34,180 bases of DNA from Candidatus Nanohalarchaeota archaeon QJJ-7 (GTDB lineage: Archaea > Nanohalarchaeota > Nanosalinia > Nanosalinales > Nanohalalkaliarchaeaceae). The DNA lies in NCBI GenBank assembly GCA_022865215.1, contig JALIDP010000006.1:1-34180 (forward strand). Reading direction: 5' to 3'. A program made the position numbers and the translations under genes. This document shows, piece by piece, positions 4,152 to 34,180 of the stretch (position 1 is the first letter of the stretch; each line of letters begins with the position of its first letter). The notes beneath the pieces were generated by a model. It saw nothing but the letters and a program-made list of their open reading frames with translations. It was not told where the DNA came from and did not search any database.

Positions 4152-4221
4152 TGGACCGGTCGGGATTTGAACCCTGAGCTTCCGCAGGATGCGAGGATAT
4201 CAAATCCCGGAGAGAATGAAA
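4152..4221 (-). repeat. Trailer duplication of the tRNA-Ala 3' end with internal inverted copy
   Basis: 'tggaccggtcgggatttgaaccc' at 4152-4174 and 4222-4244 (70-bp period). On the minus strand CGGGATTTGA...TCAAATCCCG is palindromic. Confidence 0.75.
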
Positions 4222-4375
4222 TGGACCGGTCGGGATTTGAACCCGAGGCCTCTCCCTGTCTCGCGTCGAAGCCCTCCTCGGAGATAAGAGACCTCCTCTG
4301 ACCGCTGTCTCTCCTTCAAGGTCGAGAAAGCGGTGTTGCGAAGGGAGCGTTCTAGCCAGGCTGAACTACCGGCCC
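4222..4375 (-). tRNA. tRNA-Ala(CGC), intron-containing (intron ~4257..4336)
   Basis: GGGCCGG/CCGGTCC acceptor with G3:U70; D-stem GTTC/GAAC; anticodon loop TTCGCAA; stem CTCCC/GGGAG; T-arm TCGGG-TTCAAAT-CCCGA. Confidence 0.8.
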
Positions 4376-4449: not shown

Positions 4450-4523
4450 GGGCGAGGGCCGGGCCGAAAACTGACGTTTTCTTGACGACCCTCGTACGCT
4501 TCGCTCAAAGGGCGAGGGCCGGG
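4450..4523 (-). repeat. Trailer duplication of the tRNA-His 3' end, 60-bp period
   Basis: 'gggcgagggccggg' at 4450-4463 and 4510-4523, with hairpin GAAAAC-GTCA-GTTTTC between (minus strand). Confidence 0.65.
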
Positions 4524-4644
4524 ATTCGAACCCGGGGCGGGAGCGCCACAGGCTCCTAGTTTAAGCCACTCCAAACTCCGTAAGGAGTTTGCGCGTGGTT
4601 GAAACGCCACGCATTGGAGTTTAAGCCACTAACCTACCCTCGCC
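4511..4644 (-). tRNA. tRNA-His(GTG) with 60-bp insertion in the D-arm
   Basis: GCGAGGG/CCCTCGC acceptor with C73 and encoded G-1; loop CTGTGGC in stem GGAGC/GCTCC; T-arm CGGG-TTCGAAT-CCCG. Removing 60 bp restores a standard cloverleaf. Confidence 0.8.
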
Positions 4645-6697: not shown

Positions 6698-6781
6698 GGC
6701 GGGGTGGTCGTCCAGTTCCTCGGAAGAAGTGGTGGACGGAGAAAACCGTCAGGTTTTCGAAACCCCCGCCTGAGCGTAAGC
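6698..6781 (+). repeat. Leader of tRNA-Pro with an upstream partial copy of the tRNA 5' end and inverted acceptor strand
   Basis: GGCGGGGT at 6698 and 6782; inverted CCCCGCC at ~6764-6770; hairpin GAAAACC-GTCA-GGTTTTC. Confidence 0.5.
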
Positions 6782-6852
6782 GGCGGGGTAGTGTAGTGGC
6801 ATCATTGGACGCTGGGGGCGTTCAGAACCGGGTTCGATTCCCGGCCCTGCCA
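6782..6852 (+). tRNA. tRNA-Pro(GGG)
   Basis: GGCGGGG/CCCTGCC acceptor; anticodon stem GGACG/CGTTC with loop CTGGGGG; T-arm CCGGG-TTCGATT-CCCGG. Confidence 0.8.
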
Positions 6853-8824: not shown

Positions 8825-8889
8825 TGCGGGGGGTCGGATTTGAACACGAAGCTCGCCTCCGGGAGCTTCTCGGGGTTCAAATCCCTTGA
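8825..8889 (-). repeat. Trailer duplication of the tRNA-Leu(TAA) 3' end, with the 37-bp hairpin shared with tRNA-Ser
   Basis: 'tgcggggggtcggatttgaac' at 8825-8845 and 8890-8910; 'gaacacgaagctcgcctccgggagcttctcggggttc' at 8842-8878. Confidence 0.85.
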
Positions 8890-10014: not shown

Positions 10015-10070
10015 CTACGAAAACACCTCGTGTTTTCTATGAAGCCGAAAATCTCCTATTTTCAAATTTA

Positions 10071-11031: not shown

Positions 11032-11116
11032 GATATTATCTCCTCCAAAGTAACTCTTTTAAAGGAAAACGTCTGCATGAGAGCCTCCCGTTGTATCGGT
11101 AGACGGCCCTCAGCGA

Positions 11117-11255
11117 TAGCCCGGCCAGGATTCGAACCTGGGTCGGGAGGCCCAGAACCTCCTATGACTGGTCCTCTGGAGTTTTGACCGTCGGACTTCT
11201 CCCTGAGATGGCCGACGGGAAGCTCGCCAGAGCTTGACCACTACACCACCGGGCT
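11117..11255 (-). tRNA. tRNA-Gln(CTG) with a putative D-arm intron (~11168..11233)
   Basis: AGCCCGG/CCGGGCT; stem GGAGG/CCTCC with loop TTCTGGG; T-arm CCAGG-TTCGAAT-CCTGG. D-arm interrupted after AGTGGTCAA; the cloverleaf is restored by removing ~66 nt. Confidence 0.78.
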
Positions 11256-11309
11256 TTTCCTCCGGTGCGTGTATCAGGCACCGCCAGGTGCGCACTACAC
11301 CACCGGGCT
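11256..11309 (-). repeat. Leader duplication of the tRNA-Gln 5' end
   Basis: 'cactacaccaccgggct' at 11239-11255 and 11293-11309 (54-bp period). Minus strand: CCGGTGGTGTA / TACACgCACCGG inverted copies flank hairpin GCACC-TGGC-GGTGC. Confidence 0.8.
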
Positions 11310-11335
11310 CTGGACCCTGGATTCAAGTTAAAGCT

Positions 11336-11761
11336 TTATCTACTATCGGTCTCTTCAAGGAGAAACATGACCGATTCCTCTACCACGAAAGACGCCAGCC
11401 AGAGGATCATGAATGCGGAATAGGCCCAGAAAACTTCTACTGCGAGCCCGAAAAAGATCGAGAGCAGCATAAAGTAGGCGAAAACCTTGAGGATCAACTG
11501 GAGTTTCTCCGCCTCCCTCGCTTTTTCCGGTATAACTCTCATCATCCTGAAGGTGAAGGCCTCCGGGACAAGATCCAGGACTGCCGAGAGGACAAGTATA
11601 AGGGCTGCGATACGTGTTATCTCGCCGAGGACGGACACCTGTCCCAGCACGAAGAGGAAACCTATTGCCGCGAGCGATTTGACTATGAACAGGAAAGCCT
11701 TGAAGCTCTCCTCTGGTTCCAGTTCCATATTCGTGTGGAAACGGTCTGCCACCTTCCTCAT
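11336..11761 (-). CDS. Small integral membrane protein
   Basis: 141 aa with several hydrophobic segments. Confidence 0.65.
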   Translation of the reverse strand: MRKVADRFHTNMELEPEESFKAFLFIVKSLAAIGFLFVLGQVSVLGEITRIAALILVLSAVLDLVPEAFTFRMMRVIPEKAREAEKLQLILKVFAYFMLLSIFFGLAVEVFWAYSAFMILWLASFVVEESVMFLLEETDSR

Positions 11762-15142: not shown

Positions 15143-15232
15143 CGGGAGAACGCCCGGGGCCGGATTCGAACACGAAGCTCGCCTCCGGGAGCTTCTCGGG
15201 GTTCGGAATCCGGCTGATATACTTCGGGAGAA
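15143..15232 (-). repeat. Trailer duplication of the tRNA-Ser 3' end with the 37-bp hairpin shared with tRNA-Leu(TAA)
   Basis: 29-bp 'cgggagaacgcccggggccggattcgaac' at 15143-15171 and 15225-15253; 37-bp identical block at 15168-15204. Confidence 0.87.
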
Positions 15233-15635
15233 CGCCCGGGGCCGGATTCGAACCGGCGTAGGCGTTGCCGCCTACCCGCTCTCAACTTAGGACAGTCCTG
15301 AAATCGGAGATTTCAGTCGTGTCGAGTGAAACCTCCGGTTTCACGACAGGGCGGTACGCCCTGTTCCAAACTCCTCTGGGAGTTTGTGCACACGCACGAA
15401 CTCCGACGGAGTTCGGAGTGAAGGTCACCTGCGCTCCATTCTCGCTCGTTTCACTCGCTCGAATCCGTCTGGACTCGACCGAGCGGAGCGAGGGAGAGTG
15501 GAACTCACCTACTTCCTCCAGGAAGTAGGTTCGAACAGCTTTCCGGAGGAAAGCTGTGACGTGGTGACCTTGAGGTGGGAGGGCTCCCTCCTAAGCTCAA
15601 GGCGGGCGCATTTAGCCAGACTCTGCCACCCGGGC
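15233..15635 (-). tRNA. tRNA-Ser(TGA) with a ~315-nt intron (~15281..15595)
   Basis: GCCCGGG/CCCGGGC with G73; CCCGC/GCGGG anticodon stem; loop CTTGA(GA); variable arm TAGGCG-GCAA-CGCCTA; T-arm GCCGG-TTCGAAT-CCGGC. Confidence 0.75.
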
Positions 15636-15840
15636 CTGTGCCGCCCGGTGGGCAGATTGAGCACCGTCAGGTGCGTGACTCTGCCACCCGGGCTTTCTAT
15701 CGGGTGGCAGTTCGAGCACTGCCAGGTGCGTGACTCTGCCACCCGGGCTCTTTCCTCGCCGGGTGGCTCTGTCGAAAACGCTGGCGCGTTTTCTTGACCA
15801 GTGAACCTGGAAGGGTACACTGGATCTGCCACCCGGTCTT
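15636..15840 (-). repeat. Three tandem extra copies of the tRNA-Ser 5' end, each with a hairpin and an inverted copy
   Basis: 'gactctgccacccgggc' at 15619-15635, 15677-15693 and 15732-15748; 'gatctgccacccggtct' at 15823-15839. Hairpins GCACCTGACGGTGC, GCACCTGGCAGTGC and GAAAACGC-GCCA-GCGTTTTC. Confidence 0.85.
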
Positions 15841-31658: not shown

Positions 31659-34180
31659 TTATCCTTTCACGTTGACGACCGGTCGCATCCTGGCCACCTT
31701 CCTACCTATACCTAGAGCGTCAGTGACTTTCACAACCTCGTCCACGTCCTTGTAGACCCCTGGGGCCTCCTCTGCTATGGTTGAACCGCTCTGTGCTTTC
31801 ACGTAGATCCCTTCCCTCTCAAGATCGTCCTGCACGTCTTCCCCCCAGTAGTCCTCTTTCGCCTGCGTCCTTGACATGAGACGGCCTGCGCCGTGCGCGC
31901 TGGAACCGAAAGTCTTCTTCATCGCCTCCTCTGTCCCCTTCAGAACGTACGATGAAGTTCCCATGGAACCCGGTATCAGAACTGGCTGTCCCACGTCACG
32001 GTACGCCTCAGGGACTTCAGGATGGCCGGCAGGGAACGCCCGTGTCGAACCCTTTCTATGCACGTAAACCTCCCTCTCCTCCCCGTCTATCTCGTGCTCC
32101 TCCTTCTTCGCTATATTGTGCGCCACATCGTATAACAGGTGCATGCCGAGCTCCTGCCACGACCTGTCGAATATCCTCTCGAACGCCTTCCTAGCCTGGT
32201 ACATAACCAGCTGCCTGTTAACCCAGGCAAAGTTGATAGCGGCGTTCATCGCCCCGTAATACTGATCCTCAAGCTCCGAACCTGACGGGGCGTAGGCAAG
32301 CTCTTTATCCGGCAACCCTTCCAGCTCCTCCTGGTGCTCCTGCTCTATCCTCCTCAAGAAATCGGAACACACCTGGTGGCCGAGACCTCGGGAACCGCAG
32401 TGGATGGTCACCACGACCTGGTCCTCCTCCAGCCCGTAGTCCTCAGCTGTCTCCTCATCGTATATCTCGGAGACTACCTGAACTTCGAGGAAATGGTTGC
32501 CGCTGCCCAGTGAACCGACCTGCTCCTTCGCACGGTCCTTCGCCTTCTCGGAGATGTGTTCGACCGATGCTTCCTCCCTGTATCCCTCGTCCTCGCAGTG
32601 TTCCAGGTCATCTTCCACCGCGTAACCATTGTCCTTGGCCCAGTGAACCCCGTTCAGACAGATCTCCTCTACGTCTCCCTTGGAAAGGCTTCCCGCGACC
32701 GCCCCCTCCCCCAGACCTGAAGGAACCTTCTGAAACAGGATGTTAGCCAGCTGCTTCTCCTTTCCCTTTATATCGTCGTAGGCGAGGTCTGTCTTCATGA
32801 CGCGTACTCCGCAGTTGGATACAATGAAGCTGTTCGCCTGGAAGTTGTGCTCCTCGTGCTCGACCCCTATATCGTAGACAGGCTTCCTGCCTGAGAACTC
32901 GATTGATTGGATCTCCACGGGAACAGAGAGGTTGTCCTTGACCTCTATTTCATCCTGGTGCTCCTCGAAGTCAGGGAAATCCTCAGGCGGACGTATCTTT
33001 GTATCTCGCCCGCTCCAGATACTTCTCTCGATGAACCGGTCGTTGATCTCAAAGCGCTGTTTCAGTTCTTTGGGCGCGGATCCGTTGTTGTAGAGGGACA
33101 CTGCTTTCTCTGCTATCTGGGCCCTTCTCTGTATCGCGTGTTCCTTCAGTTTCGTGTACTGGACGACCTTCATCGCTTCCTTCTGCTTTTCGAGATTGTA
33201 CCGGTAACCTACAGTGGTGAAGAACCGGGTAAGGTTCTCGGGTTTGCTGCTGATCCCGAAACGGAGCCGCAACATGTCGTGTTCTGCGTTACTGTCCGTC
33301 TCGAACGCTTCCAGGGCTGTAGTTTCGATATCAAGGGATCTGAGCAGGTCTTTGAGTTCCAGCATGAACTGTTCACCTTCCTCTCTTTTCTCTTCTGTCC
33401 GGTTCTGGGAGACCTGTGGTGTATAGAAATTCTTTCGGTACACGGCTGAAGGTTTGCTCATCTCGGCCCCGAAGAATGCCGAGAGGTACAATGCCTTCTG
33501 CCAGTCCGCCAGCTCTGAAAGGTAATCCGGGACGGTAAACCCGCTTTCCACCTTTTTCCCTGACGGAGCTCCGAGCTCTATGAGGAGCTTCTGGAACGCT
33601 CTCGATCCACAGGAGACGCTGGTCTCCGTTGCCTCGAACTCTTTACCTTCGACCTCGTGCTGTCGGTCCCGCTCGTAGATGCTTGACGGCGAGAACCCGA
33701 GCTGCCTTATATCCCGCTGGATGGTTTCGAGATCCTCCTTATCGGCGTAGAAGGTTGTTTTCCCTGTTTTATTGAAAGCTCCGTCTCCTGTATGGAACCC
33801 TACCAATTTCAGCAGGATGTTGAATTCGTGGTCCGTGGTCCGGAGAGGGAGCAGATCCCTGTCGGTGAGCGCTCTCACGAGCTGGGGATTATCGCCGGAG
33901 AAATCGTCTCTATCGAGAACTACTTTTTCTTCCAGCTCCTCGTCCGGAAGACCCTCGAAAGGCCTGACCATCACGGTATCTCCCTCTTCAAGGTCTTCCA
34001 GTTCCTTCATGCCCTCTGGGGTGAGGAAAGGATGGTCATCTGTCGCTTCGATTGTATCCCCGGTCCTGGTTTCAACCTGGTAAACTTCGTCTTCTTCTCG
34101 CTCCATGAAGAGGTGTATATCGGATTCTTCTGAACGTTCGGACGCTACTGTGGCCCTCTCACTTTCGAAATCATCCTTCA
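31659..34180 (-). CDS. rtcB: RNA-splicing ligase RtcB containing a large intein (N-terminal extein outside the window)
   Basis: C-terminal extein 'CGVRVMKTDLAYDDIKGKEKQLANILFQKVPSGLGEGAVAGSLS...VVTIHCGSRGLGHQVCSDF...'. Intein block B 'TGDTIEATDDHPFLT', DOD-type endonuclease motif 'LVGFHTGDGAF', C-terminal splice 'EHNFQANSFIVSN|C'. Frame is open to the window edge. Confidence 0.95.
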   Translation of the reverse strand, partial: KDDFESERATVASERSEESDIHLFMEREEDEVYQVETRTGDTIEATDDHPFLTPEGMKELEDLEEGDTVMVRPFEGLPDEELEEKVVLDRDDFSGDNPQLVRALTDRDLLPLRTTDHEFNILLKLVGFHTGDGAFNKTGKTTFYADKEDLETIQRDIRQLGFSPSSIYERDRQHEVEGKEFEATETSVSCGSRAFQKLLIELGAPSGKKVESGFTVPDYLSELADWQKALYLSAFFGAEMSKPSAVYRKNFYTPQVSQNRTEEKREEGEQFMLELKDLLRSLDIETTALEAFETDSNAEHDMLRLRFGISSKPENLTRFFTTVGYRYNLEKQKEAMKVVQYTKLKEHAIQRRAQIAEKAVSLYNNGSAPKELKQRFEINDRFIERSIWSGRDTKIRPPEDFPDFEEHQDEIEVKDNLSVPVEIQSIEFSGRKPVYDIGVEHEEHNFQANSFIVSNCGVRVMKTDLAYDDIKGKEKQLANILFQKVPSGLGEGAVAGSLSKGDVEEICLNGVHWAKDNGYAVEDDLEHCEDEGYREEASVEHISEKAKDRAKEQVGSLGSGNHFLEVQVVSEIYDEETAEDYGLEEDQVVVTIHCGSRGLGHQVCSDFLRRIEQEHQEELEGLPDKELAYAPSGSELEDQYYGAMNAAINFAWVNRQLVMYQARKAFERIFDRSWQELGMHLLYDVAHNIAKKEEHEIDGEEREVYVHRKGSTRAFPAGHPEVPEAYRDVGQPVLIPGSMGTSSYVLKGTEEAMKKTFGSSAHGAGRLMSRTQAKEDYWGEDVQDDLEREGIYVKAQSGSTIAEEAPGVYKDVDEVVKVTDALGIGRKVARMRPVVNVKG

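Follow-up and report, generated by a model that had tools for sequence, protein, structure and literature searches.

The leader cassette of a tRNA-Gln gene in a Nanohaloarchaeota genome can be read, with a probability that we put at roughly 45%, as a member of a family of maintained pre-tRNA terminal extensions, which would pair with themselves in the precursor and be removed by RNase P or RNase Z. tRNA genes are heavily studied, and their ends are thought to be set simply by these two enzymes. The original prediction, which centred on a single hairpin core, was too narrow: that core is one of several, and 3' trailers carry mirror-image elements.

The window, meaning the whole stretch of 34,180 nucleotides that was analysed, is one contig (C31) of a 753-kb, 34-contig, 78%-complete Nanohaloarchaeota MAG (G000), and the SecY that it encodes has its best matches in the Nanohaloarchaea SW_4_43_9 and SG9, at 48-49% identity. 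Four genomes were compared: this one, that of a sister genus (G001), the complete chromosome of a member of another family (G014), and G003. The tRNA census was assembled from searches and from sequence stretches of the genome; the standard tRNA model recovers just 18-19 tRNAs in such genomes, and intron-bearing tRNAs are often missed by ARAGORN and by the tRNA model, which affects the census. An own-end copy was scored at 11 or more of 14 nt for the 5' end and 14 or more of 18 nt for the 3' end, both no more than 220 nt away. G024 gave 56 tRNA matches, far more than other Nanohaloarchaeota in the same search.

The tRNA-Gln cassette and its hairpin core

On the minus strand, the two 17-bp direct repeats described around GCACC-TGGC-GGTGC are present, 100% identical and spaced by 54 bp, with an insert of 37 bp between them (Table 1). 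The inverted segment pairs with the upstream copy as had been proposed, TACACgCACCGG and CCGGTG-GTGTA of the outer copy forming an 11-bp stem with one bulged G, in which the antisense arm complements tRNA positions 4-14, including positions 8-9 and the D-stem. The element folds into a single hairpin of -26.9 kcal/mol (z = -2.9), a stability equalled by 1 of 200 shuffled sequences. The tRNA-Gln gene that follows contains a 66-nt D-loop intron and was overlooked by ARAGORN; the own-end copy score found no second copy of its 3' end in the trailer within 220 nt. Two candidate identities for the leader were rejected: a known Rfam family, no covariance model having matched at 11239-11310, and a degenerate tandem tRNA gene, given the reach of the antisense arm over positions 8-9 and the D-stem and the absence of a T-stem remnant.

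Table 1. Leader, trailer and promoter features located in the window
Feature	Position	Strand	Basis or remark
Outer (distal) copy of tRNA-Gln 5' end, 17 nt	11293..11309	-	direct-repeat comparison
Hairpin core GCACC-TGGC-GGTGC (GCACCTGGCGGTGC)	11278..11291	-	motif search and folding
Antisense copy of tRNA-Gln 5' end (TACACgCACCGG)	11262..11273	-	stem in MFE and centroid structures
A/G-rich linker (aggaaa) joining antisense to intact tRNA	11256..11261	-	sequence
Inner copy, 5' end of intact tRNA-Gln	11239..11255	-	direct-repeat comparison
tRNA-Gln (CTG): exon 1 11255-11234, intron 11233-11168, exon 2 11167-11117	11117..11255	-	sequence
Possible box A (CTTTAA) upstream of Gln outer copy	11328..11333	-	sequence and box scan
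Ser leader unit 1: outer 15693-15677, core 15674-15661, antisense 15655-15643	15643..15693	-	motif, folding and repeats
Ser leader unit 2: outer 15748-15732, core 15729-15716, antisense 15710-15701	15701..15748	-	motif search
Ser leader unit 3, two-armed: outer 15838-15822, GAAAACGC..GCGTTTTC hairpin, antisense 15767-15758	15758..15838	-	
TTTTAAAG box before Ser leader unit 3	15870-15863	-	32 nt upstream of outer copy (15838)
Pro leader element, two-armed, ahead of tRNA-Pro 6782-6852	6698..6781	+	folding z = -2.9
tRNA-Ser 3' end 15232-15253 and trailer with second 3'-end copy 15150-15171	15150..15253	-	spacing 82
tRNA-Leu(TAA) trailer: antisense T-arm, hairpin, second T-arm copy	8837..8883	-	
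tRNA with GGTTCAAATCC T-arm 4233-4243 and trailer with second T-arm copy 4163-4173	4163..4243	-	18/18 nt

The core motif GCACCTGNCNGTGC has three matches in the window against 0.11 expected, and none of 100 shuffled sequences contained three. It recurs, as foreseen, in two leader units of tRNA-Ser, and genome-wide it occurs exactly four times, always in a tRNA leader (Gln, Ser, Ser and Asp, the last at C10:14433, 29 nt upstream of tRNA-Asp), which bears out the claim that it belongs to a family and is not specific to one locus. One-mismatch matches also number four, one within a tRNA leader (C11:5746, 26 nt upstream of another tRNA, probably Cys) and three away from the tRNAs identified in the genome. 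The original prediction would have fallen with a core common away from tRNA genes or one explained as a generic terminator; exact copies away from tRNAs were not found, and positions 11050-11450 hold no intrinsic terminator site (hairpin plus T run). A transcription terminator, a generic repeat or chance could account for a GC-rich hairpin located between genes, but the excess of the motif in the window and the confinement of its exact copies to tRNA leaders leave such an explanation very improbable.

Other leaders differ in their cores. Three stacked units precede tRNA-Ser; the second has a perfect 10-bp stem (folding z = -3.8), and the most distal is of a different, two-armed type (z = -6.6) that also precedes two other Ser genes. 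This third unit is older than the other two. Leu, Pro and Ser leaders elsewhere have cores of their own on a common plan, an own 5'-end copy being followed by one or more hairpins, an antisense arm, a linker and the tRNA. The 5' copies span position 1 to the D-loop, the leader hairpins are more stable than their shuffles, and the inserts of leaders and trailers measure 37-95 bp. Two GAAAA..TTTTCG hairpins of the leader or trailer kind also lie at 10018-10063 of the window (minus strand), between protein genes and with no adjoining tRNA.

Trailer elements, census and conservation

Behind many tRNAs stands a trailer made up of a short linker, an antisense T-arm (GGATTTGAACC), a hairpin, and a second T-arm with the acceptor 3' strand, the 3' copies spanning the T-loop to the last tRNA base. 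Contig C8 opens with a tRNA, probably Phe, whose 22-nt 3' end is present three times, and the sister genus has trailer arrays of up to four units, some of them exact tandem copies (for example L238). The trailer pattern GATTTGA-N14-44-TTCAAATC has matches in 11 of the 28 genomes of the phylum, a few of them due to chance, and the control gave one hit in all. Beyond the phylum the matches are almost all chance-like, except in two archaeal genomes, G293 (L342, L344) and G044 (L345, L346), where true tRNA 3' ends are followed by a trailer of the same plan; the copies in G293 contain an encoded CCA, and those in G044 are in tandem. Large hairpin modules (CGCACC-hairpin-GCGTGCTCGAACAGC) are common to anticodon introns, trailers and leaders of different tRNAs (G000 C8:41-390, L138; C10, L050; L220; L224; L295), as if introns and terminal elements shared building blocks.

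Own 5'-end copies accompany 9 of 28 tRNA genes in G000, 7 of 18 in G001, 5 of 28 in G014 and 2 of 30 in G003, and own 3'-end copies 10 of 28, 13 of 18, 7 of 28 and 1 of 30, respectively; with flanks exchanged between tRNAs as a control, the copy rate was 0.6-5%, same-isotype matches included. Leader elements at the 5' side occur in about one third of the tRNA genes sampled in this genome and the sister genus. At nearly all positions that vary among relatives, the outer copies match their own tRNA (Leu, Ser, Cys, Gln, Asp and Pro), with two misses, one Leu and one Pro. Pairing of outer copies with leader interiors reaches -15.8 kcal/mol for the own leader and -12.6 kcal/mol for other leaders, and the own leader has a mean rank of 0.23, calculated by hand from the pairing table; three leaders (L018, L224 and L231) have poor antisense arms in this test.

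The antisense arms also tell of maintenance over longer distances. The Leu antisense box CTTGCCAACCCC, a 12-mer and an imperfect complement of the Leu tRNA end, has five matches in the 1.84 Mb searched, every one in a Leu leader, and these leaders come from G000, G001, G014 and G003, which represent two families, with spacer and linker varying among them. One Pro leader combines a drifted outer copy (GACAGGG vs GGCGGGG) with an antisense that has changed in step (ACCCTGTC). Judging from these comparisons, the terminal elements are maintained and are not junk, and they look like an old, maintained kind of tRNA gene extension.

Neutral processes might leave a similar trace: tandem duplication or strand-switching during replication would give sense-antisense-sense copies, an order expected from two template switches, and gene conversion would keep the copies alike. 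Exact tandem copies such as those of L238 and the patchy distribution of the elements agree with such an origin, but the imperfect Leu antisense box and the two-armed Ser leader persist across genera or families while their spacers differ, and hairpin cores are common to the leaders of different tRNAs. We consider a neutral by-product rather improbable.

Transcription, folding and the question of splicing

Among 24 leader genes in the four genomes, the box A score is 6.38 upstream of the outer copy, on par with 6.46 in leaderless genes, and 4.44 upstream of the inner copy; the box mostly starts 30-45 nt ahead of the outer copy or the tRNA. The spacing of box A thus refers to the outer copy, and the element lies within the transcription unit. 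Strictly leaderless transcription was rejected, the 30-45 nt spacing fitting a short leader instead. The box scan of the Ser gene in the window was referred to a wrong position; the third-unit copy at 15838 is the true reference. Upstream of the Gln outer copy, the predicted CTTTAA box is in place, at a distance of 18 nt instead of the 22 nt or so first given, and the scan locates TTTAACTT at -23 from this copy, closer than in most genes. By its placement, the element looks as if it had been inserted inside the tRNA gene after about position 15, with the 5' part duplicated.

Site-specific integration is another candidate source, in which the repeats would be attL and attR left by tyrosine recombinases whose targets are 5' or 3' segments of tRNAs ending at the D- or T-loop. 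Archaeal integrases cut at tRNA loops and prefer 3' ends, and pTN3-like ones use the 5' half (PMC8371274); in Caldiarchaeum, a 5' fragment of tRNA-Thr lies upstream as a direct repeat (PMC3293823). Here too, as in att sites, a tRNA segment that ends in a tRNA loop is directly repeated, and the tandem arrays would also be accommodated. Against scars or mini-elements of this origin, the inserts of 37-95 bp are too small for a gene, and no recombinase gene lies inside the element (the Gln insert is 37 bp); the antisense arms fit each host tRNA, the Leu leaders are kept in two families, and no promoter remains before the inner copy, unlike in pTN3-like integrations. We judge this origin to be of low probability.

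The box A scores agree with the original prediction in so far as the outer copy sits at the distance from box A that is normal for a tRNA 5' end; for the 5' end in use, the evidence points to the inner copy instead. Four leaders have copies that are not alike within the first seven bases, and in all of them the acceptor 3' strand finds its better partner in the inner copy; in the trailers the proximal 3' copy pairs better than the distal one in three cases, equally well in three and worse in none. Since the inner copy is the better acceptor partner, the inner tRNA is probably the mature one, a conclusion for which it matters that tRNA ends were taken from a search model that favours intact copies and so biases towards the inner one. 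Where the copies are identical, RNAfold usually builds the acceptor stem with the outer copy and joins the antisense arm to the inner one, and the tRNA's own acceptor pairs have a probability below 0.2 in most of 16 leader genes. The two folding states, with the outer or the inner copy in the acceptor stem, consist of almost the same pairs, and transcription order would favour pairing of the outer copy with the antisense arm first.

For a self-paired extension, the course of events may be pictured as follows. Transcription would begin a short way before the outer copy, which would pair co-transcriptionally with the antisense arm, and the inner tRNA would fold into the mature tRNA; RNase P would release the 5' end of the inner tRNA and RNase Z its 3' end, as is generally known of these enzymes, and the extension would be discarded. 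With less confidence, the antisense arm might stop the duplicate end from capturing the partner strands of the acceptor or T-arm; because RNAfold prefers the outer copy in the acceptor stem, such insulation works only if folding is kinetic. The strict identity of the outer copies to their tRNAs exceeds what antisense pairing needs, which counts against the reading as an extension. The elements would probably have originated by insertion at the D- or T-loop, or by a duplication reaching it. A gene for the RNase P subunit Rpp30 is present, and loss of RNase P as in Nanoarchaeum was rejected as unsupported on this ground; the RNase P RNA (RF00373) was not detected in G000 or G001, and several relatives gave a weak match or none.

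One may speculate that the three-strand arrangement of outer copy, antisense arm and inner copy times tRNA folding or processing. Going further, and more tentatively than for the extension itself, the elements could constitute a separate class of RNA elements that act in cis on either side of archaeal tRNAs, in which the duplicated end and its antisense form a three-strand exchange controlling pre-tRNA folding, processing order or yield. Such a class would be maintained across Nanohaloarchaeota and present in two or more archaeal genomes beyond the phylum.

Archaeal BHB introns of tRNAs are cut by the splicing endonuclease, at a 4-bp helix between two 3-nt bulges. If the elements were terminal introns, the outer copy would be the true 5' exon (the 3' exon in trailers), and the stretch from its D-loop end to the equivalent point of the inner copy would be spliced out. 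The promoter spaced to the outer copy, the strict tracking of the own tRNA by outer copies and the acceptor stems that RNAfold mostly assigns to them all speak for splicing, as do the abundance of tRNA introns in the same genomes and a His D-loop intron that combines a good BHB with splice sites lying in a 13-nt direct repeat. For a perfect repeat to be cut at equivalent points, on the other hand, a self-complementary 4-mer and flanking helices are needed, and a BHB scan with cuts at equal repeat positions and true introns as controls, which covered 12 of 16 trailers, gave 13-18 for true introns against 6-12 for most leaders and trailers, with two leaders at 15-18 as exceptions (L299 and Ser_C17, one Leu and one Ser). 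Moreover, the distal copy fits the acceptor stem worse where the copies differ, tandem units would require several excisions, and an intact tRNA 5' part stands after the element, whose removal is not required.

Among the positive controls, the introns of His, Thr, Lys and Glu passed, as did the Gln D-loop intron, with H 4/4 and h' of 6 bp; four controls scored low, of which Gly, Cys and one Ser were good after hand correction of their boundaries, and the long Ser(TGA) intron stayed short of the 4-bp helix. The Gln leader has H 4/4 with h' of 1 bp and h of 0, short of a BHB, and the Asp leader has h' of 0. For most elements the scan rejects a BHB intron that would use the outer copy for its exon; terminal introns are thereby an unlikely explanation, and BHB splicing is unlikely as a general rule, while single cases may differ.

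Several features of the window concern ordinary introns and their processing. tRNA-His (4460-4640, minus strand) has a 60-nt D-loop intron whose 13-nt splice-site repeat is AGTGGCTTAAACT and whose BHB helix pairs GGCT with GGCT; the ARAGORN call at 4510-4580 misses its true 5' end. tRNA-Ser(TGA) (15254-15600, minus strand) is interrupted in its anticodon loop by a 315-nt intron that contains several strong hairpins; of the expected BHB, both flanking helices form but the 4-bp helix does not (H 1/4). The RtcB tRNA-splicing ligase at 31659-34106 (minus strand), probably cut by the contig end, matches Pfam Intein_splicing over residues 5-431, which places an intein within the tRNA exon-joining enzyme of an intron-rich genome.

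Comparison with known systems

Searches of open-access literature on Nanohaloarchaeota tRNA introns, tRNA-end duplications, leaders and trailers found no description of the arrangement, and this kind of extension is apparently undescribed so far. The arrangement tracks the tRNA over genus and family distances, which raises the questions of which copy enters the tRNA and why the other is kept, and it bears on how introns, splits and integrations come to disrupt tRNA genes. The three-strand exchange is to us the most interesting point of the system.

Archaeal BHB introns occur in the same genomes and tRNAs and are likewise loop-bounded insertions with common hairpin modules, whereas the leaders and trailers leave the tRNA intact and are mostly without a BHB at matching repeat points. 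Tandem resemblance apart, the elements recall tRNA-like structures such as mascRNA in that the leader stem mimics an acceptor stem; the antisense arms, however, complement tRNA positions between 1 and 15, with 8-9 and the D-stem among them, and not the 3' half of a tRNA.

The split tRNAs of Nanoarchaeum equitans (PMC4033280) resemble the leaders in that 5' segments are followed by sequence pairing with other pre-tRNA segments, but the downstream tRNA here is complete and in cis, and no BHB was found at the boundary of leader and exon. The att sites of tyrosine recombinases, including pTN3-like ones (PMC8371274), share repeats bounded by the D- or T-loop and a tRNA terminus; they differ from the present elements, which have no integrase or space for one, conserved antisense arms and a promoter at the outer copy only. 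Closest in outward form is perhaps the tRNA-Thr(GGU) locus of Caldiarchaeum (PMC3293823), where a 5'-end fragment also stands as a direct repeat upstream of an intact gene and has been tied to intron gain. At that single locus the repeats enclose 1,868 bp of inserted DNA that includes an 813-bp ORF, whereas here hairpins of 37-95 bp with tRNA-specific antisense arms accompany many tRNA genes. On the whole, we place the finding among archaeal tRNA genes that are disrupted or extended, and there is a fair chance that it represents an RNA element class of its own.
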